From NCBI GenBank assembly GCA_014871385.1, contig CM026423.1, positions 18,403,690 to 18,467,689 on the forward strand: DNA of 64,000 nt, read 5' to 3'. Source of the DNA: Ceratodon purpureus. Its lineage: Eukaryota; Streptophyta; Bryopsida; Pseudoditrichales; Ditrichaceae. Each line of letters opens with the position of its first letter. Positions within the stretch are counted from its first letter, which is position 1. Shown piece by piece: positions 10,561 through 62,300 of this stretch. The notes under the pieces were generated by a model. That model was not told where the DNA came from, made no database searches, and saw only the letters and a program-made list of their open reading frames with translations. The position numbers and the translations under genes are program-made.

Positions 10561-10564
10561 GTGC

Positions 10565-26131: not shown

Positions 26132-26208
26132 ATAAGAGTAGGGAATGTCTCTGCCTCTTTTGTGTTGGTGTTATGTGAAGCTCTTTTCCGTAGTGCGGGA
26201 CAGCAGCT

Positions 26209-29900: not shown

Positions 29901-30590
29901 GAGCTTAGAGGATCCTGCAGCAGCTGGTGGGAACTCAAAAAGAACCGGACCATCAAACTTCGCAGGCAAGTACTCAACTATCTCGTGTGTAATAGTGGAA
30001 TAGTCTATCTTTTTCAAAATGTTTTTTGACCCACGCGTCTTAGCAAGCTGTTGAAGGAGGGGGACAATGCTAACTGTGACCTGGGACAATGGAGGAGACA
30101 CATTGGAAGGAAGAGCATCTGCGTGGACCTTAGGCACCAACTTGACGGGACTGACTTCGTCATCAGAAGAGAGAGATATGACGGTCGGAGGAGGTTTCTC
30201 TACATCTGAAGTCTCGGTACCAGGCTCGACTTTGACCTTGACATCACGAGGTAAGGGAGTCTGAATTGTGCAAGTAGAAGAGCGACGGGGGGTGAGGATC
30301 TCAGTGGATGCAGCCATAAGAGAATCAGTAAGACCATAGACTCTATAGGATCCAGGGAGGAGTCTCCACTGCAACATGTTGTTCTCATCTCTCACTGAAG
30401 GTTGCCCGAGGGTGTGGATAACCTCGGCAGTAACGTCATCAAAGATCTCCTCCTCTATACTGATGGTATCCTCACGGAAGTGGAATCTGAGACTCAGGCG
30501 AAGTGAGGAGACTGTACCTAGACCATCGTCATCTACGCGAAACCTAAGAGGGATGCCCATGCCTTGGGCATACAGACAGACCATCCCCAT
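26913..30590 (-). pseudogene. MULE transposase, copy 2 (nonsense codon plus frameshift)
   Basis: The exon structure matches copy 1: exon 1 30590–28512, intron 28511–28406, exon 2 28405–26913. TAG at 28755–28757 replaces a Trp codon (TGG in copy 1). A 1-base loss in a C run near 27863 shifts the frame before the SWIM half; exon 2 is 1,493 rather than 1,494 bp. The zinc region, DDE region and SWIM finger are otherwise clear. A functional full-length product is unlikely, so movement of this copy would need a transposase supplied in trans, for example by copy 1. Confidence 0.88.
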
Positions 30591-31151
30591 GATCGCAGGT
30601 AACTCAGGCAAGAAGAGAGAAGTGTGACTCTACTGGCGAAGCAATATTGCAAGAGCAAAGTGAGAGGAATGATGCATCGCTGTTGATCATTATATTCAGG
30701 TCGGAATGTCCATGTGAACAGGTGGAGAATGATTCATTCTGTTACGTAACGAATGTATGATTTAAGAGGGACGGCGCTAACTATTTGGAATGTGACTTTT
30801 TGCTGGCCGAAGAATAGCAGGTAAGATATTAATAAATCTGCTTTAATAATTTCAATCGTGGCGCAGAGTCTATTAGTTATGAAGTTTGGTAAGATTGAAT
30901 TGAGCCGTCTTTTAAATTCTACATTTAAAACAATGAATATAAAAAGGAGCATGCTTTCAAGTGCTTGATTCTAATCTTCTAATTTTTTGTGTGCTTGAAT
31001 TTATTCTTTATATTTAAAGAATAATATTTTAAACTACACTTCCGAATAGAACTGTTATGGAAATTCTTAATATAAAGAGTGTATAAAATGTGTATGGTGT
31101 TAAGATTCTATATCAATTTAGGGTTGTATCCAAATAGTTGTTCCTTATAGG

Positions 31152-31159
31152 TATTTAAG
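31152..31159 (+). promoter_or_regulatory. TATA-like box of the long gene, copy 2
   Basis: TATTTAAG, 60 bp before ATG 31219. The 30591–31218 spacer is the divergent promoter region shared with the transposase and holds no gene. Confidence 0.6.
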
Positions 31160-31218
31160 CTGGCAGGAAGTTCTTCAGAGAGTCTTTTTGTGAGAGAGTA
31201 AGTCCTTTGGTAAGACAC

Positions 31219-34200: not shown

Positions 34201-34497
34201 TGATATTTATTTTTTATTTTGAATATTTGAAAAACCCCAAACCTACTGTCGTCAACGACAGTAGGTTTGAGGCACTTCAATGAATTCGGGGATTTTTTAT
34301 TTGTTTCTCTTTATTTCTTTTGTTGGTGACATTGTGTGATAATGAAATGCATAATTGCTCACAATTTTTTAATTAAAATCAGAAATTTCGTAGATTTTCG
34401 GTATTTTCTTGATTTATTTCTTTTATTTTGAATATTTGAAAAACCCCAAACCTACTGTCGTCAACGACAGTAGGCCGGGGGCACTTCAATGAATTCG

Positions 34498-34532
<35 letters not shown>

Positions 34533-36873
34533 TTGCTGGCATTGTGTGATAATGAACTTCATCATTGCTCACAATTTGTTAATTAAAATCAGAAATTTCG
34601 TAGATTTTCGGTATTTTCTTGATTTATTTCTTTTATTTTGAATATTTGAAAAACCCCAAACCTACTGTCGTCAACGACAGTAGGTTTGGGGCACTTCAAT
34701 GAATTCGGGGATTTTATATTTGTTTGTCTTTATTTCTTTTGTTGGTGACATTGTGTGATAATGAAATGCATAATTGCTCACAATTTGTTAATTAAAATCT
34801 GAATTCTTTTTTGAGTTTCAGTATTTTCTTGATATTTATTTTTTATTTTGAATTTTTAAAAAACCCCAAACCTACTGTCGTCAACGACAGTAGGTTTGAG
34901 GCACTTCAATGAATTCGGGGATTTTTTATTTGTTTGTCTTTTTTTTTTTTGTTGGTGAGATTGTGTGATAATGAAATGCATAATTGCTCACAATTTGTTA
35001 ATCAAAATCTAAAATTTCGTAGATTTTCGGTATTTTCTTGATTTATTTCTTTTATTTTGAATATTTGAAAAACCCCAAACCTACTGTCGTCAACGACAGT
35101 AGGCCGGGGGCACTTCAATGAATTCGGGGATTTTTTATTTTTTTTTTATTTTTTTTTTTGTTGGTGGCATTGTGTGATAATGAACTTCATCATTGCTCAC
35201 AACTTCTTGATTTAATTTTGAATATTTTGTAGATTTTGAGTATTATCTTTATCATTTTTTAAATTTTGAAATTTTTAAAAAATCCCAAACCTGGATTGCT
35301 TGAGAATGCTTTGATTTCTTTGAATTTTTGATGGATTTTATTGATTTTTTAAAGGGTTTTATTGAGAATTAAAAAAATAAAGAAAACCCCAAACCTACTG
35401 TCGTTGACGACAGTAGGCCGAGGGCGTGGGGGTTGCTTTGGGGATTGTTTCCATTTTTTTATTTCTTTGAATTTTTCTGTTGATTGAGTGGGATTTCGTA
35501 ACTATTCTCTCCAGTCGCTGCCGCTGCTTCGGCTGGATTGCTTGAGAATGCTTTGTTTTCTTTGAATTTTTGATGGATTTTATTGATTTTTTAAAGGGTT
35601 TTATTGAGAATTAAAAAAATAAAAAAAACCCCAAACCTACTGTCGTTGACGACAGTAGGCCGAGGGCGTGGGGGTTGCTTTGGGGATTGTTTCCATTTTT
35701 TTATTTCTTTGAATTTTTCTGTTGATTGAGTGGGATTTCGTAACTATTCTCTCCAGTCGCTGCCGCTGCTTGGGCTGGATTGCTTGAGAATGCTTTGTTT
35801 TCTTTGAATTTTTGATGGATTTTATTGATTTTTTAAAGGGTTTTATTGAGAATTAAAAAAATAAAAAAAACCCCAAACCTACTGTCGTTGACGACAGTAG
35901 GCCGAGGGCGTGGGGGTTGCTTTGGGGATTGTTTCCATTTTTTTATTTCTTTGAATTTTTCTGTTGATTGAGTGGGATTTTGTAACTATTCTCTCCAGTC
36001 GCTACTGCTGCTTGGGCTGGATTGCTTGAGAATGCTTTGTTTTCTTTGAATTTTTGATGGATTTTATTGATTTTTTAAAGGTTTTTATTGATAATTAAAA
36101 AATTAAAGAAATCCCCAAACCTTGTATGTTTTTATGAGTTTTTAATATTTAATTGGGAGCCCTGTCTAGGTTGTGGTTTGATTCTTCATAGTTGTAAGTT
36201 TTTCTAATAATTATCAATTTCCTCAGGACGTTGATGGTGATCATCTGGGGAGCGAACGTCAAGACCCTACGCCAGCAGAAACTGAGGTATTTCATTCAAT
36301 CTACAATTTATATTCTTTTTTTATGTTCATGATTTTGAGTTCTATTCGCCCTCTTCCCTTCTTTGTTTCCTACTCTTTTAATTATGGAAGTTAATCCTCT
36401 CTTCATTTCTCCTACTCTAGGTATCATCCGATGCTCCTGAGATGTCCGCCACCTCTCCCATTTCTGTGATCAATGTTTCCGATCTATCGGATTCATTTGA
36501 TCAGCCTTATTGTACCTGTGATGTAGCCAACCCTGTAGGTGTGGAAAGTGGACCTCTCGAGGTCCACTCTCCTCAGTACATGCCTACCTCGCCAGTGTAC
36601 ATGCCTACCTCTCCAGTGTACATGCCTACATCCCCGGTTTATGAGCCAACCTCCCCGGGCTATATGCCCACGTCTCCTCCACAGGGCTCCCCGCCGATGT
36701 CTCCACCCTCTCCTTCCTCGCCGATTAGAGTCAGGAGGCCAGCCCATGTGGTCTTTGCTCTGCCGGCTATTCTGCCCTGCCCTGTCCAACAGACCAGGCG
36801 ATTTTGGAAGAGGCGCCGTCACTGGAACTGTAGACAGTCTAAGGAGTACTATAGTCGATCCTCACGAAGATAG
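31219..36873 (+). CDS. Long gene copy 2, 5' module: basic/acidic protein with Pol II CTD-like heptads (exons 1–4)
   Basis: Exons 31219–31664, 31818–32156, 36227–36286 and 36421–36873 (stop), all phase-0 junctions. Exon 1 has a nuclear-localisation-like stretch (RRARKRRESRKK). Exon 2 is Gly/Glu/Asp-rich (EDLERTDGDDGEEDPEDGDQ). Exon 4 carries five tandem heptads at 36577–36681 (YMPTSPV three times, YEPTSPG, YMPTSPP), then a Pro/Ser-rich linker and a basic aromatic tail (RRFWKRRRHWN). Exon 1 lacks one base near 31408 relative to copies 1 and 3, so full-length translation is broken unless a later start is used. Exon 4 ends in a stop, whereas the ParB exon begins in phase 0, so exon 4 may be an alternative terminal exon. 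The heptads suggest contact with factors that read the polymerase CTD; this is inference. Confidence 0.65.
33400..35901. repeat. Twelve-hairpin tandem array in intron 2, MULE copy 2
   Basis: Intron 2 is 32157–36226. It contains twelve perfect 24-bp palindromes with 11-bp stem CCTACTGTCGT and loop CA or TG, starting at 33400, 33610, 33820, 34032, 34242, 34451, 34661, 34871, 35080, 35394, 35636 and 35878. In several units the stem extends to 15 bp (CAAACC… / …GGTTTG). The first nine are about 210 bp apart and the last three 242 bp apart, set in AT-rich units. The stem core CTGTCGT is shared with the 128-bp array in copy 1. Confidence 0.93.
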
Positions 36874-37018
36874 TTTTATCAATCACAGATGATGATTGAG
36901 TTGATAAAAGAGAGATGACAGTATGAAGATATATTGTTACTTTCTTTTACATACTTGTCAACTTTGCATGACTTTCTTCGATTGTGCTTGTTCTCCTAAT
37001 TTGCGTACCTTCTGGCAG

Positions 37019-40000
37019 GTTACGCAAACACAAGATGTGTTGGTGAAACCATCTTGTCCGTTAAACTTGAAGACTGCCACAGAAGGGGAATTGGAACATC
37101 AAACCAAATACAAGGTGGACACCAACGCCATCATCAACAAGCTCAGGATCAAGCCATCGCAGAAGTCCCGAATGTCGGTGCCCCTGTGCAGGATGATCCC
37201 AATGGCAAAGGTCAGACCAGTGGGCGAAGTGGGTGTGCAGCATTTGGAGCGGGAGTTCGTCAAGGGGTATAGAGATGGCGACCGCGTCATGTACATCTCC
37301 ATGTACAACAACGAAGAGCAGACACGAGATGTTACGGATGAGGTCATGGCTAAATGGAGCCCATTGTGGAGGGACGCGAATGATGCATTTGAATCTGAGC
37401 TTCTAAGTGACGAGGACTGGTCGCAATTCTCGGGGAAGATGTTTTTTGTCTGGGAAGGTAACCATCGCCTCTCAGCATGGATTCGTCATATCAACAAGCA
37501 TCATGCAGACGACCCGTCATGGCACATATCTGTGAACTGCATAGTACTCGATCCCCGTGGCCATGTTGGCAATCTTCTTCACGCAATGCATGACATCAAC
37601 TGGTAAGTACTTGTTTCTTTTTTCCTGTTTTTCTTTTGTTACTTTATCTCATCTCTTTTATTCATCATACGGATTTTGGTTCATTTTCAGGTCGACTGAG
37701 AATGACCACGTCAAGAGTAATCTCCCTGCAAAACTATTTCGAATCCGCTCTTTCGGAATTATGAAGCTGGAGGAATTCAAAGACCTCCTCAGTCCTGAAG
37801 AGTATGACGCATGTTTGAAGAACAAGCCACCTAATCCCTCCTGGTTTCCCTTGACAACTAAAATTTTCATCGCATTTTTGTACCGAGTAAGTCCTACCTC
37901 GTCTCTCTATTTGCTTCTTATTATTCAATACTCATGAAATTTCCTAAGTCTGAATTCTCTTTCTACAGCGGGAACTCGCTGCGGCCTCCGATGAAGCAGC
38001 CAATGCCTACCGCATGAAGACACCCGAGGATGAGCAGTCTGCAAGTGCAGTTTGGGATGTCATGAATGAGGCATCAGAGAGAATGGTCGAAGCCATCAAG
38101 AAGAAGGACTTTACCAAGTACTTGGCCATTGCAAATCCCAAGAATGGTGACGACTTCCTCAACGAGGTGACTCACTGATCATTGTTCAATTCACTGTTTC
38201 CCATGACTTCCATAATTTCTGTATTTATCTTTTTCAAACTTCGGTGCTTCTTGCAGATTAATCGCCATTTCAGTCTCAACAATAAGCCTGAGATGTCAGT
38301 GGATAAGCTTCAGAAGATTGTTCCTGCGGCCGTTGAGGCCAAATACAAGGCTCGTTGGTTGAAGTGGTGGAACTCATCCCCGAGTGCTCGAACGTCTTAC
38401 AGATTTCTGCCATCTGAATTCAAGGACACCGAATTCGACCCATGGTTGAACAAAGCTTCATTCTGGGCTGGGGTAATTTTCATAAAAAATCCATTCCAAT
38501 TCCTTGTTCCTTTAAATTTTTACCATATTCATTCTTCGATGCTACTTATATGAATTTTGTATTACAGTTGGAGGAAGCCGTCATCCACGAAGTCGAAGAC
38601 GTATTCAAGTCTGAGAACCTCGATATCAATTGGATGGCATTTCCTGATGTCCAACAGCCGGGCGATTTTGTCGAGAGTTCACGTATTCTCTTGTGGGACA
38701 AGGCCTTCCCTACGTTCATTGGAAAAAAAGCTGAGAAGCACTTCGACAAGAAGTCCAACTTCGCTAAATTCCCGGGAACCGCTCAAGTTGTCAAGCGGGT
38801 TACTTACCGGTACATTACCTTACTTAATCTCATTTCCATTTTATAGTTTTCATTGTAATTGTTTCTTATACTTACCTCCTTCTTGTCTTCCCATAGGTAC
38901 TTCAAGCGAGAGCTTATATTTAAGGGGGCCATCAGCGTTCAGCACCTCCCCAAGTACTTCAAGCTTTGGACGCAGACATCCTCGGACCAGTGTATGTACT
39001 CTCCTCAGCAGATAAAAAGGTACAAACCTGCTCACCTGGATGCTGGATGCTGGTATCTTGATTGTATTGGTGGTTTCACTATTGACTCCGAGGCGGAAGT
39101 CAAGATGCTGCACGATGGGGGTACGGTTGTGGTGGAGGACTCCGTGGATGATGCAGAAGGTCGTGAAGGAGAGCAGGATCAGTCTTCTGCTCCACCACCG
39201 AAGAGAGGGAGAGGAAGGCGACTGAAATCTCTGCGTTCTCGGTCAGAGGCATCACAGCAAACGGGTGCGGAGTCTTCTGCGCGAGCTGAGAAGGCACCAG
39301 AGCCGTCTCCGGGTGTTGTCATTACCAACCCTTCTCCAGCTTCTTCGCCGGCTCCTTCATCGATCAGTGCTTCGGAGATCACCAGAGGTCTCCTTCAGCA
39401 GAGGAAGGCCAAAATATATCCTCAAACAACTTCTTCCGCTGGAGCTTCGATTTCCACACAAGTTTCCGTCTTCAACTCATCTGTGGATTCCATGTTACGG
39501 CGAAATAGGAGACCGGAGAGAAAAGGTGGCGACCCGGATTGGATCAAGACTCAAGACTTCATTCGCAAGGTTTGTTCCTATATTTTGACATTTAATGGAT
39601 TCTGCCACCTCTACTCGCTATGTAGTTACTAACTCTCCTTTCTTGTTTGCTCAAGTTTGGAGCAGGCCGCGAAAACAAAGTTCCGGACCGCTGCAAACAA
39701 GAGAACCATTTGGGAGTCGACTTGATCATTGCCGACATCCCTGAGAATCTTCCCGTCCCTTCCGTTTCCGTTCCCCCCACGAGTATTCCGCCTTGGAACT
39801 CTCGCGAGAAGGATTATGTGTTCGACATCTTCCGTTTTGCAGATAATTACATGCCGAAAGATGGTGCCATCTGCCTCATCTACAACACTGATCAGAAGCT
39901 GGCTAAGGATATCGAGGAAGAAGCTGCTGGTGGTGAGTACGTGCTCTTCAAGGACTGGTGGGGCGTCAATGTCCTCGGCCTCACTTCTCCTACGAACCTC

Positions 40001-40966
40001 AAGAACTTGGTACTTTTCGTAAACATACCCTTCTCTTAACTTACTGATAACCCTTCCGCTTGATTCTATTCACTACTTTTGCTTGACTGCAGACTATGCG
40101 GTTCTAGATTCGCGTTCGTAGTGGCAGTACTTTCTCCTTCCAGACGAAGAAGGAAGATCTGATACATCGGCTCCTCAACATTACCGAGAGTGATGCCATT
40201 TTCAACCTCACCGATCTGGACTCGCAGCTCATGAATGGGGAGGTGCCGTGGAGAGGCCCAAGGGAGAAATCCCCTGAGATGATGCTGGGCGTAATTGAGG
40301 AGCTCTCAAAGCCCGGCGACATAGTCCTTGATTGGAATGCTGGGACAGGTAACTCTTCTTACATATCTCTGCTTAATTATTCCTCTCGTTTTTCCCACAG
40401 TTTCTTATTTCTTTGTTTCTCTCCGAGTTTCAGGGGCCTCCATCAAGGCCGCTCAGGCTGTTGGTCGTCACATTCTCGCTTTTGAGGATGACGAAGCCAT
40501 ATTCAACGCCCTTCTCAAACCATCCGCCATGGGTCCTCCTAAACATCCAAGGCCGGCAGCAGCAGGCGAAGCGCCTCCAAAGAGAGCAAGACCTGACAAG
40601 TGGTGTAAGTCTTCTATTCTTTGTTCAAATTATCCAATCATTACTTCTCTTTCCAGCTCTACGTACTCGATCTAACCACAATCGGTTCTCTATTGCAGAG
40701 TAGTTTCAGCAACACCGCCACGTGGGCCAAGAGCAGTGTCCACTCCATCGTGGCGTCTTCATTCCAGCCCGATTCAGCCTTTCATACTTCCGGACTACGC
40801 AGAGGACTTAGCACAGGCGTTTCAATCTGGAGCCCTTACATATGTTCCTAGTCGGCCAACTACTTTTGATCCCAGGGCCCTTCTATTCGTCGATGACGAG
40901 GCGGTAGAAGGAGATTCAGAGTCATCTAGTTCTGAGAGTGAAAGTAGCGATGGTAGCATGTTCTGA
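37019..40966 (+). CDS. Long gene copy 2, 3' module: ParB-like + N6/N4 DNA methyltransferase-like protein (ten exons)
   Basis: Exons: 37019–37602, 37691–37886, 37969–38166, 38257–38472, 38568–38809, 38897–39569, 39656–40009, 40108–40348, 40434–40604, 40701–40966. All have GT–AG borders, and the total of 3,141 bp gives 1,046 residues with no stop. The first exon has a ParB/sulfiredoxin-like pattern (KVRPVGEVGVQHLE…VWEGNHRLSAW). The middle is a helical region of unknown fold, then a Ser/Pro-rich linker. The C-terminal third matches a beta-class (permuted) amino-methyltransferase: DLIIADIPENLP at the DPPY position (about residue 725), then PGDIVLDWNAGTG and GRHILAFEDD for the SAM-binding motif (about 890). 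DPPY has become DIPE, so catalysis is uncertain. The tail is acidic/Ser-rich. ParB–methyltransferase fusions are common in phages and bacterial mobile elements. The N-terminal start and its link to exons 1–3 are unproven. Confidence 0.75.
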
Positions 40967-41420
40967 GTTTGAAGGAGGCTTCGGTCTTTCATTGTTTTCA
41001 TTGGATTTGATTTGATTTGATTTAATTGGAGTTCATTGCGTAATCCTTCGTCTACTCTACTACCCTGAATCTATACTTGTTACGATTCTCATTTCCAAAT
41101 CGTCTCCTCCTATGTAGAGGATGAAATGTCACAATTGTAATGCTCAAAATATAATATGAAGAATGAAATGTTACAAAAGAAATGCTCAAAATTTAAATTG
41201 CGCTGTAATTTATATTTTAATCTTTCAAAATCCCACATTTCCATAGCCATGTTACCTATTCTTGACTTGGTGTACATCTTGGTTTCTGCTACTCCATTAT
41301 TCTACACAAACTCTGAAATATTCCACGAACTTTTAAGACCATCTCTTTTAGTTGGTTTCGAGTTGTCTTATTCGTAAATCTTAAGGATTGTATTCGAACA
41401 CCCCGCTAGACTTCACAGTA
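40967..41420. other. 3' spacer between the long gene and gene C, copy 2
   Basis: AT-rich sequence, nearly identical to 57526–58000 in copy 3. No coding sequence is supported. Confidence 0.5.
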
Positions 41421-41792
41421 CTAATCCTTCGGAGGATATACAATCCAACTCTTGTCCATATCAAACCAGCAAGTTTCGCCATCCGATATGATCACTTCGG
41501 GCAGCTGAACAACTGGATTCTCATCGACGTTCGATAGCAAGGGATACGGGATTAGGGACAACTCCATAATACGGAGAAGCTCATTGGTACAAAGCACTGT
41601 CCAACGCCATTCACCTTCACCAACATGGAGGCTTCCGATGTGCCTAAACGGTGGCAGGTCCATGCCTCGTTCCCTGGCGCGCTCCACCTCCAGCAGCCAC
41701 GGCCGCAGCTCCTCATAACTCGCCGGTGCCTTTGGGGGCAAACCTACAGCCGCTCTCGTCCTCCTGGATCTCGCATTACACACCTTCGGCAT
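41421..41792 (-). CDS. MULE gene C, copy 2: small conserved antisense ORF
   Basis: 123 residues from the first ATG (MPKVCNARSRRTR); the same start and length occur in copy 3. The N-terminus is basic and the rest looks folded (LRPWLLEVERARERG, WRWTVLCTNELLRIM, CWFDMDKSWIVYPPKD). The frame is open further upstream to 41909 through a GTG, so an upstream spliced exon is possible. It lies between the methyltransferase gene and the right end, on the opposite strand. I do not recognise the family; near-identity of the copies may reflect recent homogenisation, so evidence for selection is limited. Confidence 0.5.
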   Translation of the reverse strand: MPKVCNARSRRTRAAVGLPPKAPASYEELRPWLLEVERARERGMDLPPFRHIGSLHVGEGEWRWTVLCTNELLRIMELSLIPYPLLSNVDENPVVQLPEVIISDGETCWFDMDKSWIVYPPKD

Positions 41793-42254
41793 CGCGCAAG
41801 ACACTGAATTCTTGTAGTCTTCAAACGTTACACGCAAGCTTGCAGATTGACATCCCCGAACTCCTACGCTACCTTCGCATACAGCACAGAATGCCAAGGA
41901 CTGTGTCACTATCCTAATACGCCACCTTCAAACAAGCTAAAGAAACCAAGAGTGACCTCCTTCTCTGGAACCCAGCTTACCAAGTGTTGTTTCATGATGA
42001 GAATCTCTTACTTGTATCACTCAAATGAAGATGCTTTGCTGCCTAGGAAGAGAGAGTAATCTTCGATGAAGACAAGGACTCTGACAAGGTATATCTTGGT
42101 TTCAGCAGTTAAGATAATATACACGAATTTTGAAATATTCCAGGAAGTTTTCAAACCTTGACTCCTTTACATTCTTTCAAATTTGTTTTTTCCCTTGTGC
42201 ATTTACATAATCCTATGAAAGAATTATTTGTTTGATCTAAAACTCAACGCCTGA

Positions 42255-42562
42255 TCATTGTATCTTGCCTAAACCCATGACAAATCTAAAGGAATGTATG
42301 CATGACGTCAGCATGACATCAGCCCTAATTTGTATCTTTGAGAACAAACGTAATAAATTCTTACCAGAGATAATCCTAATTTCCACGGTAATATACTCTT
42401 TTTCTAAAAAAAGTGTCACAATCAAGCCTTAATTTAGTAATTTTCCACGGTTATAGGGTCTACTTTGCTTTTGAAAATTTTCGTAATTGTCAATTCTGTG
42501 CTCTCCATTCTGCGCTCACCGCTCTCCGCTCCACGCTCTCCGCTCACGTACGAACTTTCCCC
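42255..42562 (+). repeat. Right end of MULE copy 2 (subterminal region and inverted terminal repeat)
   Basis: About 310 bp shared with 49818–50131 and 58825–59135. It ends with clustered GCTCTCC/CGCTCACC motifs and CGCTCACGTACGAACTTTCC-type sequence, the inverse of the left end. It is immediately followed by the direct repeat TGTCATAGGG. Confidence 0.88.
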
Positions 42563-42572
42563 TGTCATAGGG
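42563..42572. repeat. Target-site duplication, right copy, MULE copy 2
   Basis: TGTCATAGGG, identical to 25220–25229. Confidence 0.88.
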
Positions 42573-49817: not shown

Positions 49818-50131
49818 ATCTTGCCTAAACTCATTGTATCTTGCCTAAACTCATGACAAATCTAACAAAATATATGCATGACGTCATCATGACATCAGCC
49901 CTAATTCGTATCTTAGAGAACAAACGTAATAAATTCTTACCAGAGATAACCCTGATCTCCACGGTAATATACTCTTTTCCTAATAATAGTGTCAAAATCA
50001 AGCCTTAATTTAGTAATTTTCCACGGTTATAGGGTCTACTTTGCTTTTGAAAATTTTGCTAATTGTCAATTCTGTGCTCTCCATTCTGTGCTCTTCGCTC
50101 TACGCTCTCCGCTCACATACAAACTTTCACC
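49818..50131 (+). repeat. Lone MULE right end
   Basis: About 310 bp, nearly identical to the right end of copy 3, in the same orientation and ending in the GCTCACATACAAACTTTCACC terminal type. There is no element body to its left. It directly abuts the truncated left side of MULE copy 3. Confidence 0.85.
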
Positions 50132-50652
50132 GTGTATTAGCAATGCCGTATCGCGAGAGCGAAGTGAGAGGAATGGTGCATCATTGTTGATCATTTTATT
50201 CAGGTTTGAATGTCCATGTGAACAGTTTGAGAATGATTCATTCTGTTAGGTAACGAATGTATGATTATAGAGAGACGGCGCTAACTAATTATGAAGGCAC
50301 TTTTTGCAGGTCTAAATACATGAGTTAAGGTTTATTTAACTCTACTTTAATGTTTGATCCGTGGAGAGGATTCTATTTGTCATGATGTATTATAAGATTA
50401 GAATGAGCCGTCATTTCAAAACTACATTTAAAACAATGAATATAAAAAGAAGCATGATTGAAGTGCTAGATTCAAATCTTTTAATTTATAGTGAACTTAG
50501 ATTTCTTCCTTATCATTAAAGCTTGAAATTTTAAACATAGCTTCAATTATAGAAATGTTATTGATACTTTTAATATAAAGTGGGTAGAAAATGTGTCAGT
50601 GGTTAATTGTATATCAACTTAGGGTTTTATCAAAATAGATGTACGTGATAGG

Positions 50653-50660
50653 TATTTAAG
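50653..50660 (+). promoter_or_regulatory. TATA-like box of the long gene, copy 3
   Basis: TATTTAAG, 60 bp before ATG 50720, as in copies 1 and 2. Confidence 0.6.
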
Positions 50661-50719
50661 CAGGGAGGAAGTTCTCCAGAAAGTCTTTTTGTGAGAGAGT
50701 CCTTCCTGTGGTTAGACAC

Positions 50720-53332
50720 ATGAAGCAGAGTGGAGGGCCATCTCCCTCCACTTATGTTACTCCTAAACAGAGAAGGAAACCTGGCCGCACTGATTTTACA
50801 AATAGAAGAGCTAGAAAGAGGAGAGCATTACGTAAAGAGGTAGATTTTAAAAGTGACCATTTGAGTGCACCCGTGAAACGAAGAGGAGGAGATCTGCCTG
50901 TAGCTTTGAAGTTTTGTAGCCTTCGCAAACTCATTCTAGACTCTATAGTAGAGGAGAAAGACGAATTACTAGAGAACACGGTCGTTGAGAATCACGAGCA
51001 CGAACAGGAGGTATTCTTAAGTACAGCAGCACGTGAGGCCATGACGGAAGAATTAGTCTTTAATTGTAGTCAAAAAGCAAAGTCTCCGCAACCTTCAATT
51101 ACATTCAATGAGTTTTCGACTGGAGAGCCTGATTCTCAATCAGATCAGGTAAGTATTTCTAATCCGTCTAGAACCACACTTGTGTGAATTATGTGTAATG
51201 GACTATAATTCTGGAAACGCTATTCATTTATTAGATTGATTGAAGAGAGTGTGGTTCCTTCTAAGGGTAAGTGAGAGGGGCCGCGTCACTTGACACAGTC
51301 GAAGTGATCTCTCAGAGAGAGGGGCCGCGCCATCCATCCATGAATTCAAATGATAGCTATTTTTATACAGAGCTCAAAGTGGATGAGAGGGGTCGGGGAT
51401 CGAGGTGGTGTCTCTACTGTTGGTGAGTGCATTGAACTGGAGCATCTTCGGGTTGAAGCGAGGCGAGCTAGGCAGGGAATTTTAGCAGCAGGAGTGGGAG
51501 GGAGAGCTATGGCTGCGCAGAGAGAGGAGAATTCTGGGAGGCCGCGAGTATGGTGATGAAGAGGAGGTTGCCCGTGGCGCGCAGGTCGGCGACGTTGATG
51601 GGATTATTGTGCCTGAGGACGAGGTCGAAGTTCAGCAAGCGGACCATGTCGAAGGCCAGCTCGAGGACCTGCACAACGACGACGACGACGACGACGAGGT
51701 AGGCGACCATTGGTGTCTGCATGATTTACTTTTTGAAAGCTTGTTGGGAGTTTCTGGGGGATCGTTGTGATTTTGCTGGGTGCTTGAGTGCGTGCTGGGT
51801 GCTTGGATTGATGGGTAGTTATTGGGATTGTTGGGAATTTGCAGCTTGTTGGGTTTCAGTTGTGTGTTGGGGATTTGCGGCTATTGGGTTATGGGAAGCT
51901 CTGAAGATTCGAATGTAGCGGATTCGAATTGTTGGGGACTCTTAATGTTGGGGATTCAGCTTCCATGGTTGTTTGGGAGTGTTAAGAAGTTGGTTTCTAT
52001 GAATGAGTGTGGGGAATTCGGATTCGGGGATTCAGTGTGGGCAATTCGTATTCAAGAGATTTAAATAAGTATTCAACACTGCCGCGGATGAGGACTGACC
52101 CCGGCCTCCGATGAGGCTTGGTGCATGCGGTTTGATGTCTACTTCGTAGCTTGGCTCATAAGCAATGCCGCAGCTGAGGAGGCTGTGAGCCTCCCATGAG
52201 GCTTGCGGTGTTTATTTTTTTTTTTAAATCTCTTCATGCGAAGTAGCCTGGTGTCTGCTTTCGGAGCAGACACCAGTGCCTCGAGCATGCAGTGGCACCC
52301 GGCTGAGGAGGCTTCAAGCCTCCGATGAGGCTTGGGGCATGCGGTTTGTTGTGTACTTCGTAGCTTGGCTCATAAGCAATGCCGCGGCTGAGGAGGCTGT
52401 GAGCCTCCGATGAGGCTTGCGGTGTTTATTTTTTTTTTTAAATCTCTTCATGCGAAGCAGCCTGGTGTCTGCTTTCGGAGCAGACACCAGTGCCGCGAGC
52501 ACGCATAATTGTTTTTTTATTGCTTTTCTTTAGTGTTAAGTGAACTCTGCCATGTATTATTAATTATTGGTTTCATTCTACTTTTCTTAGGATGTTGTGC
52601 TTGTATTAATGTGTGATCATTTCTGCATGTAGATGTGAAACTATCTACAGGGGTGAGAATAATTTTAATAATTGTCATTAGTGCATTTGTTATGAATTAC
52701 AGGATACTTCCCAGCAGAACATGGGGACCGAGAGTGAAAGCAAGGGACCAGAGGAGACAGAGGTATAGCTACTGATAAATTCATTTTCTGGATTCACATG
52801 TTCTTATTATCCTAAATAATTTGAGCATTTGAAAGTTCTTTCAAATGATTTTTAAACTCTAACTTCCTCATGTGCCATGTACTTGCAGGTAGGCTCTGAT
52901 GCTCCCGACATGTCTGTCAATTCTCCAATCTCTGTGATCAACCTTTCAGACCTGTCAGACCCAGAAGATGAGCGTCTTTGTACCTGTGATTTAGCCATTC
53001 CTTTAGGTGTAGACACTGGACCTTTCGAGGTCCAGTCACCCCAGTACATGCCTACTTCGCCTGTTTATGAGCCCACCTCTCCTGTGTACATGCCCACCTC
53101 TCCAGTGTACATGCCCACCTCTCCACGTCTTGGCACACCGCCGTCTTCGCCTAATCCCCCAGTTTCACCTTTGGTGTTGAGGAGGCCTGCCGATGTAGTG
53201 TTTGCCCTTCCGGCAATACTGCCCAGCGCTTGCCGTCAGACCAGGCGATTTTGGAGGAGGCGCCATCATTGGAATAGTAGAGAGGCTAGACAGTACTATG
53301 GAAGGGCTCCTCGTAGAGTAGCACGGCCTTGA
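50720..53332 (+). CDS. Long gene copy 3, 5' module with CTD-like heptads (exons 1–4)
   Basis: Exons 50720–51148, 51371–51698, 52703–52762 and 52889–53332 (stop). Exon 1 is open in full (143 codons) with the basic RRARKRRALRKE stretch. Exon 2 is 328 bp, one base more than a multiple of three: the frame with ARRARQGILAAG shifts near 51535 into the acidic frame that ends in DDDDDDDE at the donor, so a 1-base insertion is likely. Exon 4 has four heptads at 53045–53128 (YMPTSPV, YEPTSPV, YMPTSPV, YMPTSPR), a SUMO-interaction-like motif (VINLSDLSD) and a basic aromatic tail (RRFWRRRHHWN). Exon 4 ends in a stop in both copies 2 and 3. Confidence 0.65.
52076..52503. repeat. Two-unit hairpin tandem repeat in intron 2, MULE copy 3
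   Basis: Intron 2 is 51699–52702. Two units of 214 bp each contain an inverted repeat with 11-bp stem TGGTGTCTGCT and loop TTCGG, at 52249–52275 and 52463–52489, with GAGGAGGCT/AGCCTCC secondary inverted repeats. The sequence is unrelated to the arrays in copies 1 and 2 but occupies the same intron. Confidence 0.9.
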
Positions 53333-53471
53333 TGCTTGGTGTCATAGATTTAATTTGAGATGTTTTTTTTTACTCTTTCATTTATGAGAAAATCTCTAAG
53401 TGATTGGTAAAATATATTTTTCAGTATCTACATTGTTGAGTTTGATTGTTCATTTCTATTGCTTACGGCAG

Positions 53472-56400
53472 GTACCCGACTTGACGCAAACACATGACGT
53501 GTTGCCATCATCATCAAAGCCTCTGGACTTGAAAGACGCTGTTGAAGGGGAACTGCTTCATCAAACACAGCATAAAGTTGACTCGATCAACGTCATCAAT
53601 GCCGTTCGTATTCAGCCCTTGAGGAAGTCTCGCCTGCTTGTGCCATTGTGTAGAATGGTCGCAATGGCAAAAGTGAGACCGGTTGGCGAAATGGGCGTGC
53701 AACATTTGGAGAGGGAGTTCGTGAAGGGTTACAGAGATGGGGACCGCGTGATGTATATTTCCATGTTCAACACTGAAGAGATGTCAATGGATGTCACGGA
53801 GGAAGTGAAGGCAAAGTGGAGCCCGTGCTGGCGCAGGGCTAACAAAGCCTTCGAAGCCGACCTCCAAGGAGACGATGACCTCAATCAATTTAGTGGCAAA
53901 ATGTTTTTTGTATGGGAAGGGAACCATCGCCTTTCAGCTTGGTTACGACACATCAACAAGCATCATGCCGACGATCCAGCTTGGCACATCTCCGTGCATT
54001 GCATCATTTTGGACCCCCGCGGCCAAGTGGGCAATCTTCTCCATGCCATGCACGACATCAACTGGTAAGAATTTTGGTTGAACAATTTCTCAATTTTGAT
54101 TTCGGATCATCCTTCTATTATGATGTGTTCTCTAAACTGTTTATTTTGTCCACAGGTCTACTGAGAATGACCATGTCAAGAGTAATCTTCCAGCGAAGTT
54201 ATTCCGCATCCGCTCTTTCGGTGTCATGAAGTTAGAAGAATTCAAAGATCTTCTAAGCCCAGAAGAGTTTGAAATCTGTGTGCAGAATAAACACGCAAAG
54301 GACCGATGGTTCACCTTGACAACTAAGGTTTTCATTGCGTTCCTATACCGAGTAAGAATTTATTCCTTGACTCAGCAAGTACATTTGTTCTGATCCTTAC
54401 TTTAACTAATGCATTTCAAGTAGTTTGTACATTGATTTTTATATACTGCGTTTCCATGTACAGAGAGGGATTGCAGTCGCCTCGAATCAGGCCGCAAGAG
54501 CCTACAAGGAGAACACGCCAATAGAGGATCAATCTGGATCTGGAGTTTGGGATGCCATGACGACTGCATCAAACAACTTCATCGATGCCGTCAAGAAGAA
54601 GGACTTCACCAAGTACTTGGCCATTGCGAATCCCAAAAATGGTGACGACTTCCTTGCCGAGGTGAATCCTTAATCCCTTCACCTTAAGCTATTTTGTTCT
54701 TATCTCCCTTGTTATATTGATTTCATAATGCTAACAGTTCTGTTCTAATTGCAGATTAACCGCCACTTCAGCGATGTCAACAAACCTGAGATGACATTGG
54801 ACAAGCTGCAGAAGATTGTGCCGGCGGCAGTGGAACTGAAGTACAAAGCTCGTTGGTTGAGGTGGTGGAACTCCTCTCCGACTTCAAGGCAGTCTTATAG
54901 GTTCCCACCACCGGAGTTCAAGGAAGCTGACCTCAACCGTTGGCTAAACAGGGCTTCATTCTGGGCAGGGGTATGCTCCCTTATTTCTAGAACTGATAAT
55001 GTCTTTGTCATTCTATCACTTTGATTGTCGTAGTCTAATTCTGCTGACTGTCTCTTGTAGTTGGAAGAAGCGGTCATCCAAGAGTTCGAGGACATGTGTA
55101 AGGCCGAGGAGCTGGACATCAATTGGAATGCCTCCCCTGATGTTCAGCGACCTGGCGATTACGTGGAGAGCTGGCGTATTCTGCTTTGGGACAGAGCATT
55201 CCCGGCATTCCTTGGATCCAAGGCGAAGAAGACTTTTGATAAGAAGTCGATTTTCACGAAATTCCCTGGAACGGAAGATGTTGTCAAGCGAGTCATATAC
55301 CGGTATGAATCTTTTCTCAAACATGTGTGCATTTCGAATCCTCCCGTTCCTCTCTCCCACATACTAAGTCATTCAAAATTGTCCCACACTAGGTACTTCA
55401 AGAGAGAGCTTCTTCCAAAAGGAGCCATCACTGTCCAACAACTCCCAAAGTACTTTCCTTTATGGATCCAGAGAGGCTCGGACCAGTGTATCTACTCTCC
55501 TCAGCAATTGAAGAGGTACAAAGCTCCCCACTTGGAGGCAGGATGTTGGTATCTAGATTGCCTCCGTGGTTTTACAGTTGATTCTGAGGCCGATGTCAAA
55601 TCATCACTTGATCTTCGAGCGCCGGTCGTTGAAGACTCCAATGAAGCTTCTGAAGAAGACAAAGAACATCAGAGTCAATCATCTGCACCTCAACCGAAGA
55701 AAGGGAGAGCTCGGCGACGGCGAACTCTGGGTTCGAAGTCACAGACCTCACATGATACTGGGGCTGAGTCTTCCTCACCAGGGAAGGAGATGGGCAACGC
55801 TTCTCCAACTATAGACGTCCCAATGCCAACGTCGACCACAGCGAATGCGCCTTCATCCATTGGTGCTTCTGCGATCACGCGAAGTCTCATTGAGCAGAGG
55901 AAGGCCAAACTATATCCTCAAACAACTTCTTCCGCTGGAGCTTCGATTTCCACACAAGTTTCCGTCTTCAACTCATCTGTGGATTCCATGTTGCGGCAAA
56001 ATAAGAGACAGGAGAGAAAAGGTGGCGGCGACCCCGATTGGATCAAGACTCAAGACTTCATTCGCAAGGTATGTTTTGATATTTTGACATTTAATGGATT
56101 CTGCCACCTCTACTCGCTTTGTAGTTACAAACTCTGCTTTCTTGTTTCCTCAAGTTTGGAGCAGGCCGCCAAAACAGAGTTGGGGACCGGTGCAAACAAG
56201 AAGACCATCTAAGAGTCGACTTGATCATTGCCGACATCCCTGAGAATCTTCCCGTCCCTTCCGTTTCCGTTCGCCCCACGAGCATTCCGCCTTGGAACTC
56301 TCGCGAGAAGGATTATGTGTTCGACATCTTCCGTTTTGCAGATAATTACATGCAGAAAGATGGTGCCATCTGCCTCATCTACAACACTGATCAGAAGCTG

Positions 56401-57525
56401 GCTAAGGATATCGAGGAAGAAGCTGATGGTGGTGACTTCGTGCTTTTCAAGGATTGGTGGGGCGTCAATGTCCTCGGCCTCACTTCTCCTTCGAACCCCG
56501 AGAACTTGGTAATTTCCCTAAACATACCCTTCTCTTTACTTACTGATAACCCTTCCGCTTGATTCTATTCACTACTTTTGCTTGACTGCGGACTATGCGG
56601 TTCTAGATTCGCGTCTACGTTCGTAGTGGCAGTACTTTCTCCTTCCAGACAAAGAAATCCGAGTTGATACATGGGGTCCTCAACATTACCGAGAGTGATG
56701 CCATTTTCAACTTCACCGATGTGGAAACGCAGCTCATGAATGGGGAGGTGCCGTGGAGAGGCCCAAGGGAGAAAGCCCCTGAGATGATACAGGGCATAAT
56801 TGAGGAGCTGTCAAAGCCCGGCGACATAGTCCTTGATTGGAATGCTGGGACAGGTAACTCTTCTTACATATCTCTGCTTAATTATTCCTCTCATTTTTTC
56901 CACAGTTTCTCATTTCTTTGTTTCTCTCCGAGTTTCAGGGGCCTCCATCAAGGCTTCCCAAGCTATTGGTCGTCACATTCTTGCTTTTGAGGAGGACAAA
57001 GCCATATTCAACGCCCTTCTCAAACCGTGCATGGCTAGACCATCCGCCATAGGCCCTCCTAAACATCCAAGGCCGGCAGCAGCAGGCGAAGCGCCTTCAA
57101 AGAGAGCAAGACCTGATAAGTGGTGTAAGTCTTCTATTCTTTGTTCAAATTATCCAAGCATTACTTCTCTTTCCAGCTCTACGTACTCGATCTAACCACA
57201 ATCGGTTCTCTATTGCAGAGTAGTTTCAGCAACACCGCCACGTGGGCCAAGAGCAGTGTCCACTCCATCGTGGCGTCTTCATTCCAGCCCGATTCAGCCT
57301 TTCATACTTCCGGACTACGCAGAGGACTTAGCACAGGCGTTTCAATCTGGAGCCCTTACATATGTTCCTAGTCGGCCAACTACTTTTGATCCCAGGGCCC
57401 TTCTATTCGTCGATGACGAGGCGGTAGAAGGAGATTCAGAGTCATCTAGTTCTGAGAGTGGAAGTAGCGATGGTAGCATGTTCTCAGTTAGAAGGAGGCT
57501 TTGGTCTATTGTTGTTTTCATTTGA
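53472..57525 (+). CDS. Long gene copy 3, 3' module: ParB-like + N6/N4 DNA methyltransferase-like protein (ten exons)
   Basis: Exons: 53472–54064, 54156–54351, 54464–54661, 54755–54970, 55061–55302, 55393–56068, 56155–56508, 56607–56853, 56939–57124, 57221–57525; 3,213 bp in total, 1,070 residues, no internal stop. Splice positions and phases equal copy 2. ParB-like region: KVRPVGEMG at residues 67–75 and GNHRLSAW at 150–157. Methyltransferase region: DLIIADIPENL at about 729–739 and PGDIVLDWNAGTGASIKAS then GRHILAFEED at about 896–925. The order of catalytic motif before SAM motif is that of the beta class. Five of the ten exons differ markedly from copy 2, yet the frame is kept in both, which argues for past selection. 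Likely nuclear; substrate and activity unknown. Confidence 0.77.
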
Positions 57526-58000
57526 TTTGATTTGATTTAATTGGAGTTCATTGCGTAATCCTTTGTCTACTCTACTACCCTAAACCTAAACTTGTTATGA
57601 TTCTCATTTCCAAATCGTCTCCTTGTGTGTAGAAGATGAAATGTCACAATTGTAATGCTCAAAATATAATATGAAGAATGAAATGTTACAAAAGAAATGC
57701 TCAAAATTTAAATTGCGCTGTAATTTATATTTTAATCTTTCAAAATCCCACATTTCCATAGCCATGTTACCTATTCTTGACTTGGTGTACATCTTGGTTT
57801 CTGCTACTCCATTATTGTACACAAACTCTGAAATATTCCACGAACTTTTAAGACCATTTCTTTTAGTTGGTTTCGAGTTGTCTTATTCCTAGAATCGTCT
57901 ATGTTATCTAAAACCATCATGCTGGAACACTCGTATCTAGATTCAATAAGGGACCAAATCTAAAGGATTGTATTCGAACACCCCGCTAGACTTCACAATA
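57526..58000. other. 3' spacer between the long gene and gene C, copy 3
   Basis: Nearly identical to 40967–41420 in copy 2 apart from a short extra segment near 57890–57960. No coding sequence is supported. Confidence 0.5.
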
Positions 58001-58372
58001 CTAATCCTTCGGAGGATATACAATCCAACTCTTGTCGATATCAAACCAGCAAGTTTTGCCATCCGATATGATCACTTCGGGCAGCTGAACAACTGGATTC
58101 TCATCGACGTTCGATAGCAAGGGATACGGGATTAGGGACAACTCCATAATACGGAGAAGCTCATTGGTACAAAGCACTGTCCAACGCCATTCACCTTCAC
58201 CAACATGGAGGCTTCCGATGTGCCTAAACGGTGGCAGGTCCATGCCTCGTTCCCTGGCGCGCTCCACCTCCAACAGCCAGGGCCGCAGCTCTTGATAACT
58301 CGCCGGTGCCTTTGGGGGCAAACCTACAGCCCCTCTCGTCCTCCTCGATCTCGCATTACACACCTTCGGCAT
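58001..58372 (-). CDS. MULE gene C, copy 3
   Basis: 123 residues from ATG (MPKVCNARSRRTR), differing from copy 2 at only a few residues. No frameshift. Same position and orientation relative to the right end. Function unknown. Confidence 0.5.
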   Translation of the reverse strand: MPKVCNARSRRTRGAVGLPPKAPASYQELRPWLLEVERARERGMDLPPFRHIGSLHVGEGEWRWTVLCTNELLRIMELSLIPYPLLSNVDENPVVQLPEVIISDGKTCWFDIDKSWIVYPPKD

Positions 58373-58824
58373 CGCGCAACACACTAAATTGTCGTAGTCT
58401 TAAAACGTTCCACGCAAGCCTAGAGATTGACCCCCCCGAACTCCATCGCTACCTTCGCATACAGCACAGAATGCCAAGGACTGTGTCACTATCCTAATAC
58501 GCCACCTAGAAACAAGCTAAAGAAACCAAGAGTGACCTCCTTCTCTGGAACCCAGCTTACCAAGTGCTATTTCATGATGAAAATCTCCCACTTGTATCAC
58601 TCAAATGAAGATGCTTCGCTGCCTAGGAAGAGAGAGTAATCTTCGATGAAGACAAGGACTCTGACAAGGTATATCTTGGTTTCAGCAGTTAAGATATTAT
58701 ACACGAATTTTGAAATATTCCAAGAAGTATTCAAACCTTGCCTCCTTTATGTTCTCTGAAAGTTGTTTTTTTCCTTGTGCATTTACATAATCCTATGAAA
58801 GAATTATTTGTTTGATCTAAAACT

Positions 58825-59135
58825 GAACGCATGGTCATTGTATCCTACCTAAACTCATGACAAATCTAACAAAATATATGCATGACGTCATCATGACATC
58901 AGCCCTAATTTGTATCTTAGAGAACAAACGTGATAAATTCTTACCAGAGATAACCCTGATCTCCACGGTAATATACTCTTTTCCTAATAATAGTGTCAAA
59001 ATCAAGCCTTAATTTAGTAATTTTCCACGGTTATAGGGTCTACTTTGCTTTTGAAAATTTTGCTAATTGTCAATTCTGTGCTCTCCATTCTGTGCTCTTC
59101 GCTCTACGCTCTCCGCTCACATACAAACTTTCCCC
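58825..59135 (+). repeat. Right end of MULE copy 3
   Basis: Ends in clustered GCTCTCC motifs and CGCTCACATACAAACTTTCCCC-type sequence. The sequence after it (GTCGAGGG…) belongs to the intron before the next methyltransferase-gene fragment. Confidence 0.85.
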
Positions 59136-59335
59136 GTCGAGGGTGTGTTTTACTTGTGACTAAACCTGATGGAAGAGGGTGTGATTTACTGATGACATAT
59201 TTTCCGTTCCGCTGACTCAATTTCTCCACATGACCACCTCTACGAGTCTACGCATTCTTCTCCATGAGCTGTTTAATCTGTTATCTTTTATTTGCTATAA
59301 GCTAATTGGTTTATTGTGTGTTGGGTCCTGCAAAG

Positions 59336-62300
59336 GTATTTCAAATACGAGCTCTTAGCGAAGCAAGCAATTTCAAAAGAAAACCTTCCTGTATTTCTTG
59401 CAGCATGGGTCGATCGATCGAACCCAGCATGCATGTTCTCCGCATTGCAACAGCGGACATGGACGACTTCGCACCTTACCGCAGGTGCATGGTACTTGGA
59501 CTGTGTGCCAAGCTTTACTCCATCGTTTGAGATCGAGCTCTGGAAGTCGAGGGACGCCATTGGGGAGTCTGGTATAGAAATGGTTGATCTTATTGGAATA
59601 GAAGACGAAAATGAGAGAGCGAAGGCGCTGAAGAGAAGGGTCGAAGAAGACCGTAAGAAGGCCCAGAAAGTGAGAGAAGCGGAGCAGAAGGTGGAGCAGA
59701 ACAAGCTTGAGAAGCAACAGAAGGCACAAGAGAAAACAGCGAAAAAATGCAAGATGAAGGTCACTACCCCGGGTCAGGAGGATATAGAGAGTCCGACTAA
59801 TGATTCCGGGCAGAGAGAGCATACGGCCTCGAGGAATAGAAAAAGGAGAACAACCTATGATGAACTTAACCAGCTTCTCGAATTTTACAATACCGGGGAC
59901 TGAGGGAAAAATGAAGAAATGATCCTGAACTCATTCCTCGACGATGTTCTAGCAGGCAAAGATGATGACTACACACCAACGTACCTGGAAATCAAGGATT
60001 TCCAACTTAAGGTAAAGCAGCTCACATCTCTTTGATTCGAGTCATGCTTGAAATGGCAGCAGAGGTGACTCCACTTTGAAATCAGTCGGTCAATTCACTT
60101 CATCAATTTATTATTAGCCTAGGTTTCAGCACCTAGTTAGTCCTTTTCGAGAGAATGATATCCGTGTAATTTTAACTCATACCATGGTGGGTCAGAACCA
60201 TGGGCACTGTGGCGCGACCCGAACAGTCACATACACATCTCTAAGAATCAAGACTGACTGGGCCTTTGTGTGTTCAATTTATTTGTAATTTTCAGTTTCT
60301 AATGTCTGTCTAGCTCTGCTCCGTAGCAACCGTAGTCGAAGAAGTCTTACTTGGGTGCCGACTTTGGAATGGTGTCTAATTGGCCTTTTTTACATGTAGT
60401 GTTCTGTGACTTTTAATGGTGACCGTGATGTCTACTTAGCCCTTATGTGCATTGAGTTTAATTATACTATTGCCTTTCCATTGTCTGTACTGCTCTGCTG
60501 TAGTGTCATAGAATACCTGCTCGGTCGCGGATGCTATGACCTTTGCATTTGTCCAGCTGAAGCTTTGTCCTTGTGCTTAAAGGGGAGCTCATGTGTATCG
60601 ACTTATTAGTTGCGGATGTGACTAGGACCTCACCCTATTGAGAGGCCTCCAGAATTTGAGTTATTATGCTGCGTATAATTGACTTCATTCTATTTACTTT
60701 ATGTGCAGGTTACTGAAGGGAGAGCCCTGCATTTGAAGGGAGATCAAGTGAGTCACCCGTTCGTTGACCTCATCATTGCTGACTTAATAGAGAACCTCCC
60801 TGTCCCAGGCGTCTCAGACCCTCCTAGATCCATCCCCGCTTGGAATGAGGGAGCTTCTGATTGGTTGCAGAGCATTTTGCTGAGAATCACCTGCACCATG
60901 ACGGGGCGATGATACTTTTTCATCCTTTTTGTGCAACAACGAAATCTGAAATTCTAGGTTACTGTGACGTGTATGGAATGAAAGTCCGCAAGGAATGGTG
61001 GGCAATGAACCGACTCCACCTGACATCACCCTTGGATCAATCCGTTACTGTAAGTTGTAGCTAAACATTACTCCCCTTGTTTTGTTTCGTAGTCACCCCG
61101 GTTTTGCATATTTTCTCTCCAGATAACCATTGAGAATCAGCTTAAACTTATTCTTGTAGCCAAGGACCACGAGCCTGTCTGGATAACTTAGTGATACTAG
61201 CACTCTCCTTGCAGTACCAAGTGGTCACGGCCTAGGCGGACAGCCATGGAGAAAAAGCCATTCAAAGGAGCGTTTTCAGAATTAAACTTCTCATCTCTTG
61301 AGCAGTCTATCATCATTGCTTGGGCTCTATTAGAGTTCGAAATCCCTCCATCTAAATGCAATCACAGAGTCCTGATAAATTATTACTAACTTAGTGTTTC
61401 AAATTGGGATGCAGACACTCCGGTTTGGAATTATCCTGGCAGTGAAGAGTGGATTTCCTGCATCAAAGTTTGCTTTCAGGCCTGTGCCCAAGCTGCTTAG
61501 CCACCACGGTGTAAACGTGGGCCGTGATGACTGCCTACAGAACATTGTTCTGCCCGAGAACCAGATGTGTGATGGTCAGAGGCCATGGATAGGCCCCCGG
61601 GAGAAATCGGTGGTACTCATGGAAATGTTGATTGAAGCTGCATCAGATCTGGGCAACGTCATATTAGACTGTACGACAGCAACTGGTCAGTTTCCTGTAC
61701 CGAAAAAATCTTTGTACTCTATGTTGCACTACCTCTCCTATTTGTCCACGAACACTATTACCACTAATAATATAAATTCATTGGGTTGTGTTTCAGGTTC
61801 ATCAATCCATGCCTGCCGCAACATTGACCGCCACATTGTGGCCTTGGAGGCCGATGCAGCCATTTTCAAGGCTTTGTTAGAACCATTAATTCGGAATACT
61901 TCGGTCCGTGAGGGCAGCACCGCACAGCATGTCATCTCTGAGGATCCTGAGGGAGAAGTTCCTGTCATGAAGATCGTGAAGAGATCTCGATTCAAGAAGT
62001 GAGTTTAGACTCTTTTTCTCTAGTGTTACCTCTCATATACACGCATTCAATGTAAAGTGGATTTATAAACAACTTGCCATTTACATTTGCAGATGCAATA
62101 ACATGAGGTCTCCCGTGCATCGTTCTTTTTTTCTGATCCTAATTTCCACCCGAGCCCTCCACAGTCTTGGAATCTTCCATCTTATGCAAACGATGGAGCT
62201 ATCCAACTAGCTCGTGGTTCGTACCATTACTTTAGATCTAAAAATGCACCAAGTAGATGGCTGGAGTTTCTTGATATTGAAGCCGATGAGTCAGACGACC

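Follow-up and report, generated by a model that had tools for sequence, protein, structure and literature searches.

A ParB-methyltransferase gene with a replaced catalytic motif is a very probable accessory gene of a large, high-copy DNA transposon in the moss Ceratodon purpureus

Introduction

Does a gene that joins a ParB-like part to a DNA methyltransferase with an altered catalytic motif belong to the plant in whose genome it lies, and would its product still methylate DNA? These questions are raised by a 64,000-nucleotide stretch of the moss Ceratodon purpureus (assembly GCA_014871385.1, contig CM026423.1, positions 18,403,690 to 18,467,689 of the forward strand), referred to here as the window and used for all coordinates that carry no contig name. 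A sequence-only reading of the gene at 53472-57525 had described it as a plant gene encoding a ParB-like part fused to a permuted beta-class amino-methyltransferase in which DPPY is altered. The altered motif is present in the sequence, and the fusion is supported by a match to the Pfam family PF01555 and by the predicted folds of a relative, whereas the description as an ordinary plant gene has to be given up, as the gene is carried by a transposon.

Results

The window contains three copies of the gene, all on the plus strand: the gene mentioned above (copy C), copy B (37019-41002), whose exon 1 is 75% identical to that of copy C, and the remains of a third, diverged copy D (59325-61903). 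Copy B lies within a complete element of 17,333 bp (25230-42562), which has terminal inverted repeats that are 82% identical over 67 columns near the tips and is flanked by a 10-bp target-site duplication, TGTCATAGGG, at 25220-25229 (left) and 42563-42572 (right). The element interrupts a gag-like frame, recognized by eye, that continues on both sides with one stop at the junction. A second complete element, of 14,917 bp, was read over 15.4 kb on contig C12 (C12:16203300-16218216; loci L073 and L071); its inverted ends are 94% identical over 53 bp, and its target duplication, TTGTTAACCC, is again exact and 10 bp long. Exact 10-bp duplications were thus found in both elements of which both ends were read. 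In each of the two, a common start region separates the transposase gene, read to the left, from the ParB-methyltransferase gene, read to the right. Since two complete elements carry inverted ends, 10-bp duplications, a transposase gene and a divergent ParB-methyltransferase gene, the latter is not a host plant gene but very probably, judging from this arrangement, an accessory gene of a large, high-copy moss DNA transposon.

Genome searches, in which only the best-ranked candidates were scored (85 to 150 matches per query), agree with this arrangement. Exon 1 gave at least 150 dispersed matches (best 150 of 1899 candidates), the best 30 of which are 96-100% identical and lie on many contigs, and exon 7 also gave at least 150 matches (best 150 of 1689 candidates), 141 of the 150 without a stop. 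Among the best 85 transposase matches, 27 lie no more than 25 kb from one of the best 150 ParB exons, and all but one of these 27 pairs are divergent; randomly placed positions yielded a mean of 1.6 linked pairs and a maximum of 8 in 1000 trials. The other 58 transposase matches have no partner among the best 150 exons. The contig C6 (110.5 Mb, or 30% of the 362-Mb assembly), which is probably a sex chromosome, holds 68 of the best 150 ParB-exon matches.

These data also bear on the idea of a domesticated host gene family that adjoins transposons by chance. Its one support is that a relative, P0001 (1147 amino acids), is recorded as a moss hypothetical protein (M758_1G295400). Against it stand the location of the window type inside element ends with target duplications, the at least 150 dispersed matches, and the fact that the P0001 type is itself multi-copy (at least 59 matches; best 40 of 5255 candidates). 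We give this idea hardly any credence. The loci of the P0001-type subfamily are L001-L005, L008 and L039-L068.

Copy C resides in an incomplete element (50132-59137, plus strand), which is homologous to the complete elements from 50132, on the 5' side of the divergent transposase gene, to the right end. The right end was placed at 59135-59138 by self-comparison of the window and by four further copies (L069-L072). The transposase gene and the left end are missing, and their place is occupied by a second copy of the 303-bp right end in direct orientation (49831-50133, plus strand; 98% identity). The 303-bp direct repeats that flank copy C (49831-50133 and 58835-59137) had suggested an element of the long terminal repeat type; we rejected this because complete elements have inverted ends and 10-bp duplications, and the repeat is simply the right element end.

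The inverted ends are built from 7-bp GAGCGNN iterons, of which there are four to five per end. The site GAGCGNNGAG occurs 9 times in element B and 12 times in the C12 element, and 9 of 9 and 9 of 12 of these sites, respectively, are in the ends; 50 shuffles gave means of 0.3 and 0.5 and maxima of 2 and 3. Toward the 5' side of the ParB-methyltransferase unit, tandem repeats of variable number (units of about 210-240 bp; 33346-36122, 52104-52505, L070 and L072) inflate element length.

The class of the element was approached through its transposase and its ends. In element B, the gene (26913-30629, minus strand) has a broken frame, with open reading frames (ORFs) at 28755-30629, 27842-28429 and 26913-27863, and its DNA is 91% identical to that of a further element, A, where two ORFs (745 and 505 amino acids) with a SWIM-like C terminus lie at 4809-8598 on the plus strand. 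The corresponding ORFs of the C12 element (729 and 505 amino acids) are open. No Pfam domain was found in the 120 listed of 154 database relatives of the transposase. The best Pfam hint is weak, Transposase_mut at an E value of 0.034 in 2 of 22 sequences, and the SWIM-like end matches PF04434 at 0.12. When the window protein was aligned with 21 of the relatives, D540, D589, C618 and H621 proved invariant or nearly so, as are zinc-ligand-like, GCM1/WRKY-like Cys and His residues that precede D540. Mutator-like transposases are marked by conserved D and D residues, CxxH, zinc ligands and a SWIM-like end, and their elements have terminal inverted repeats and target-site duplications of about 8-11 bp. 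Because the 10-bp duplications, the inverted ends, the transposase residues and the SWIM-like end agree with these hallmarks, the element probably belongs to the Mutator superfamily.

The gene of copy C is predicted to consist of ten exons, all on the plus strand and separated by nine GT-AG introns of about 85-113 bp. The boundaries were derived from splice motifs, and the start codon and 5' exons are provisional. Once spliced, the exons form 3,213 nt in a single frame of 1,070 residues, in which the only stop is the terminal one. The motifs named in the sequence-only reading (KVRPVG, GNHRLSAW, DLIIADIPENL, PGDIVLDWNAGTG and GRHILAFEED) were all located on the plus strand where it had placed them. 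Exon 1 (53472-54064) carries the ParB/sulfiredoxin-like part (KVRPVG...GNHRLSAW), as judged from these motifs and the predicted fold of P0001. Exons 2 to 6 (54156-54351, 54464-54661, 54755-54970, 55061-55302 and 55393-56068), placed by splice motifs and frame, form a linker region (54156-56068) in which no known family was found. Exon 7 (56155-56508) contains methyltransferase motif IV, DLIIADIPENL, within DLIIADIPENLPVP, where DPPY is changed to DIPE. The methyltransferase string GPREK...DWNAGTG...GRHILAFEED is spread over exons 8 (56607-56853, with PGDIVLDWNAGTG) and 9 (56939-57124, with GRHILAFEED), and exon 10 (57221-57525) encodes a C-terminal tail, the frame of which ends 13 codons earlier in B, L070, L071 and L072 than in copy C. 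An apparent frameshift between exons 6 and 7 was ruled out, as an upstream acceptor (exon start at 56155) restores one open frame; several relatives read the same residues as copy C across this junction.

Two ORFs upstream on the plus strand are tentative additions to the gene. The first, at the start of copy C (50660-51187), is a probable 5' exon and is related to an ORF of element A (3790-4344, minus strand) that is divergent from the transposase gene of that element. The second (52889-53330), a probable 5' exon or small gene, contains YMPTSPV-like repeats and lies directly upstream of the ParB exon, as does its counterpart in copy B (36421-36873). The number of these repeats varies between copies. 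They recall the heptad of the RNA polymerase II C-terminal domain (PF05001, E value of 0.0091, below cut-off), of which the ORF is a possible mimic.

The methyltransferase part of copy C matches PF01555 with 32.0 bits (cut-off, 26.7), and the protein matches a methyltransferase family of PHROG with an E value of 4.6e-10. A four-sequence profile retrieved PF01555 proteins beyond its own family from an E value of 1.5e-8 (database of 5.8 billion), and 45 of the 58 rows of the P0001 alignment are PF01555-type proteins outside the family. Motif IV precedes motif I, and the P0001 model has the fold of beta-class amino-methyltransferases. As far as sequence comparison goes, these data establish the homology of the methyltransferase part to beta-class enzymes. 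The ParB-like part is assigned differently. Pfam ParB models do not match the copy C protein at E ≤ 1 or P0001 at E ≤ 5, and the assignment for copy C derives from the fold model of P0001, in which residues ~234-387 are predicted to adopt a ParB/sulfiredoxin fold. Both fold models are of P0001; this structure prediction, proposed as a check in the sequence-only reading, returned the ParB-like as well as the methyltransferase fold, and the presence of the two folds in one protein is hence supported by modeling.

The sequence-only reading had further reported DIPE, DIPE and DLIE in the three window copies, and these changes are real: B and C have DIPE, and D has DLIE, with the second proline lost as well. 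They depart from the canonical catalytic (D/N/S)PP(Y/F/W). A pattern captured motif IV in 27 of 44 family proteins, the remainder mostly being without exon 7. It reads DIPE in 19 and DLPE in 2 of the 27, with DTPF (P0001), DAPS, DVPE, DMLE, DVPK and EIPD occurring once each; 69 of the 77 proteins P0045-P0121 have DPPY. Within the moss genome, DIPE is present in L069-L072, B and C, and nine loci of the P0001-type sister subfamily have DTPF, DQPF or DQPY. Identity with exon 7 of copy C falls from 86% to 37% among the 19 DIPE proteins and from 45% to 26% among those with D[VL]PE, and the next residues are mostly NLPVP or GLPVP. Sequence comparison thereby establishes the replacement of DPPY by a conserved family motif, DIPENLPVP. 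Such a conserved new string at the catalytic motif is unlike decay and suggests a function that was changed but kept. Motif I reads DWNAGTG in copies B and C and DLSASTG in P0001, and the 14 family proteins with a captured motif I all lack the S-adenosylmethionine (SAM) motif FxGxG.

The main rival to a noncatalytic function holds that the protein is an active modification enzyme that attaches to the element encoding it and deposits N6-methyladenine or N4-methylcytosine there, the exchange of Y for E being tolerated or the substrate having changed. It gains from the CcrM-type homology and fold, from the D and second P of motif IV retained in DIPE, from the acidic end of the GRH strand (FEED in C, FEDD in B) and the GTG of NAGTG retained in both copies, and from the conservation of the motif down to 37% exon identity; activity was also proposed for the algal relative in the pertinent passage of PMC12477816. 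It is countered by the Y position, which is not aromatic in any of the 26 family proteins other than P0001 with a captured motif IV, and by the lack of FxGxG noted above. We regard an active enzyme as unlikely; judging from these motifs, the DIPE subfamily has rather more probably lost classical catalysis than retained it.

Whether the protein is maintained was approached through nonsynonymous (dN) and synonymous (dS) divergence. In exon 1, the 30 best-matching copies (435 pairs) gave a mean dN of 0.008 and a mean dS of 0.095, a ratio of 0.09 that is biased downward because the copies were picked by exon-1 protein match. The pair of C and B, which was not picked in this way, has a dN/dS of 0.05 for exons 1 and 2, with a saturated dS of 3.1. 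Six further comparisons-based copies were not needed for this: among the 15 pairs of six copies, the methyltransferase exons gave ratios of 0.27-0.56 except in the two closest pairs (0.76-0.77), and the middle exons gave 0.19-0.50 except in one pair (0.77). Taken across the exons, the estimates indicate that the protein is under constraint; the ParB half is likely more tightly constrained than the rest, though this is not cleanly shown. The synonymous divergence between B and C (37019-41002 and 53472-57525) falls from 3.1 for the ParB exons through 0.85 for the middle exons to 0.115 for the methyltransferase exons, and the two copies look mosaic, as if their 3' halves had been swapped by recombination or gene conversion.

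A passive cargo, namely a gene that the element picked up but does not use, as in Pack-MULEs, would be consistent with the location of copy C in an element copy without transposase, with stops in some copies (exon 6 of L069, L070 and L072 carries stops) and with the bias in the exon-1 estimates. Such cargo is nevertheless highly unlikely: the methyltransferase exons, which played no part in the choice of copies, have ratios below 0.6 in all but two of the 15 pairs, the divergent layout recurs in 26 of 27 linked pairs, and a transposon-borne counterpart is described for an alga in PMC12477816.

An origin from a phage-like source, as put forward in the sequence-only reading, found no backing: the ParB-exon profile gave 117 and 186 pattern matches in the viral and prokaryotic genome collections (viral_contigs and genome_contigs), none of which was confirmed as a relative. 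The methyltransferase profile did reach at least three viral loci (L074-L076); this part is explained as well by a relationship to ordinary prokaryotic enzymes. A methyltransferase tree of 58 sequences groups the family's 13 rows in a single clade with a support of 1.0, and the tree is uninformative on the donor because several rows span half the domain and the outside rows are the nearest database matches only.

Among the surroundings, two gypsy-type polyproteins (10534-15300 and 20299-25221), identified by eye, adjoin the left ends of elements A and B, and their DNA is approximately 70% identical over 2.9 kb. The window begins with a satellite-like array (2-2667) of ~128-bp units that are mostly 96-98% alike. 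A methyltransferase exon (P0036) and a transposase relative (P0213) were found on equally sized contigs (466,347), which suggests one shared contig of another assembly.

Discussion

Taken together, the reading that we favor, and consider to have a good chance of being correct, is that of an accessory gene encoding an element-encoded regulator with a non-classical methyltransferase half. The ParB-like half would bind element DNA, most obviously, as candidate sites, at the GAGCGNN iterons that each end contains. Iterated short sites in the ends may be bound by a ParB-like protein or by the transposase, and we place iteron binding by the ParB-like protein somewhat below even chances. The DIPE half would be a SAM- and/or DNA-binding module rather than a classical N6A/N4C enzyme, because it lacks the aromatic side chain by which the flipped base is held. 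As a whole, the protein may sustain the expression or mobility of the element, either by regulating it or by counteracting its silencing, possibly as a partner of the DxP[F/Y] subfamily. METTL3-METTL14 and MTA1-MTA9 provide parallels for a pair of active and inactive methyltransferases. The most specific version, in which the DIPE subfamily is a transposon ParB-pseudomethyltransferase that is noncatalytic, recognizes iterons and possibly serves as the inactive half paired with the DxP[F/Y] subfamily, appears doubtful at present. The conserved replacement of the catalytic motif raises the question of whether marking is needed or binding alone. A moss is convenient for laboratory work on this question, as its elements are numerous, have defined ends and carry a divergent transposase gene.

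Several known systems share individual features with this protein. With CcrM, M.HpyAVI and MboIIA it has in common the homology, the order of motif IV before motif I and, in the P0001 model, the fold; it differs from them in having DIPE or DxP[F/Y] in place of DPPY, in that FxGxG was not seen, and in its fusion to ParB-like and helical regions within a eukaryotic transposon. The likeness to the ParB N-terminal domain and sulfiredoxin lies in the predicted fold of this part of P0001; where ParB has GERR, the moss protein has GNHR. VANC anti-silencing proteins are accessory proteins of plant Mutator-like elements, and the resemblance lies in this role and in short motifs repeated in the element, with no common domain claimed. 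A ParB-like domain fused to an adenine methylase is also described for Bacillus cereus Bce_0392, the ParB part of which is said to nick DNA in the relevant passage of PMC5512222. Such bacterial fusions are prokaryotic, and the moss ParB exon had no sequence relative in our scans of viral and prokaryotic genomes.

Searches of the open-licence literature of PMC turned up nothing on this element, nor on ParB-methyltransferases in transposons of mosses or other land plants; Iyer 2011 and Petroll 2025, both cited by PMC12477816, may cover more. As far as these searches go, three features are new: the host is a moss, the element is probably Mutator-like, and a conserved motif has replaced the catalytic one. 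ParB-methyltransferase transposon genes as a kind are already known from algae. PMC12477816 mentions similar proteins in green and red algal transposons (its references 50 and 51) and, for red algae, giant EnSpm elements that carry accessory genes, whose ParB-methyltransferase content the passage does not state. The closest parallel by published description is Sola1-1_Ec32 of Ectocarpus, a large DNA transposon with a 1104-residue protein that combines ParB-like and N4C/N6A methyltransferase parts and is encoded on the strand opposite to the transposase (PMC12477816). The moss gene likewise encodes one long two-part protein, with both folds predicted in P0001, and is transcribed opposite to the transposase of a DNA transposon. 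It differs in its host, in an element that looks Mutator-like, with 10-bp duplications, rather than Sola1, and in its replaced catalytic motif. ParB-methyltransferase transposon genes are thus reported from brown, red and green algae in PMC12477816 and now from a moss, seemingly in another element type. Should such a gene recur in unrelated elements, it would probably serve a genuine purpose for transposons, perhaps in self-marking or in the escape from silencing.

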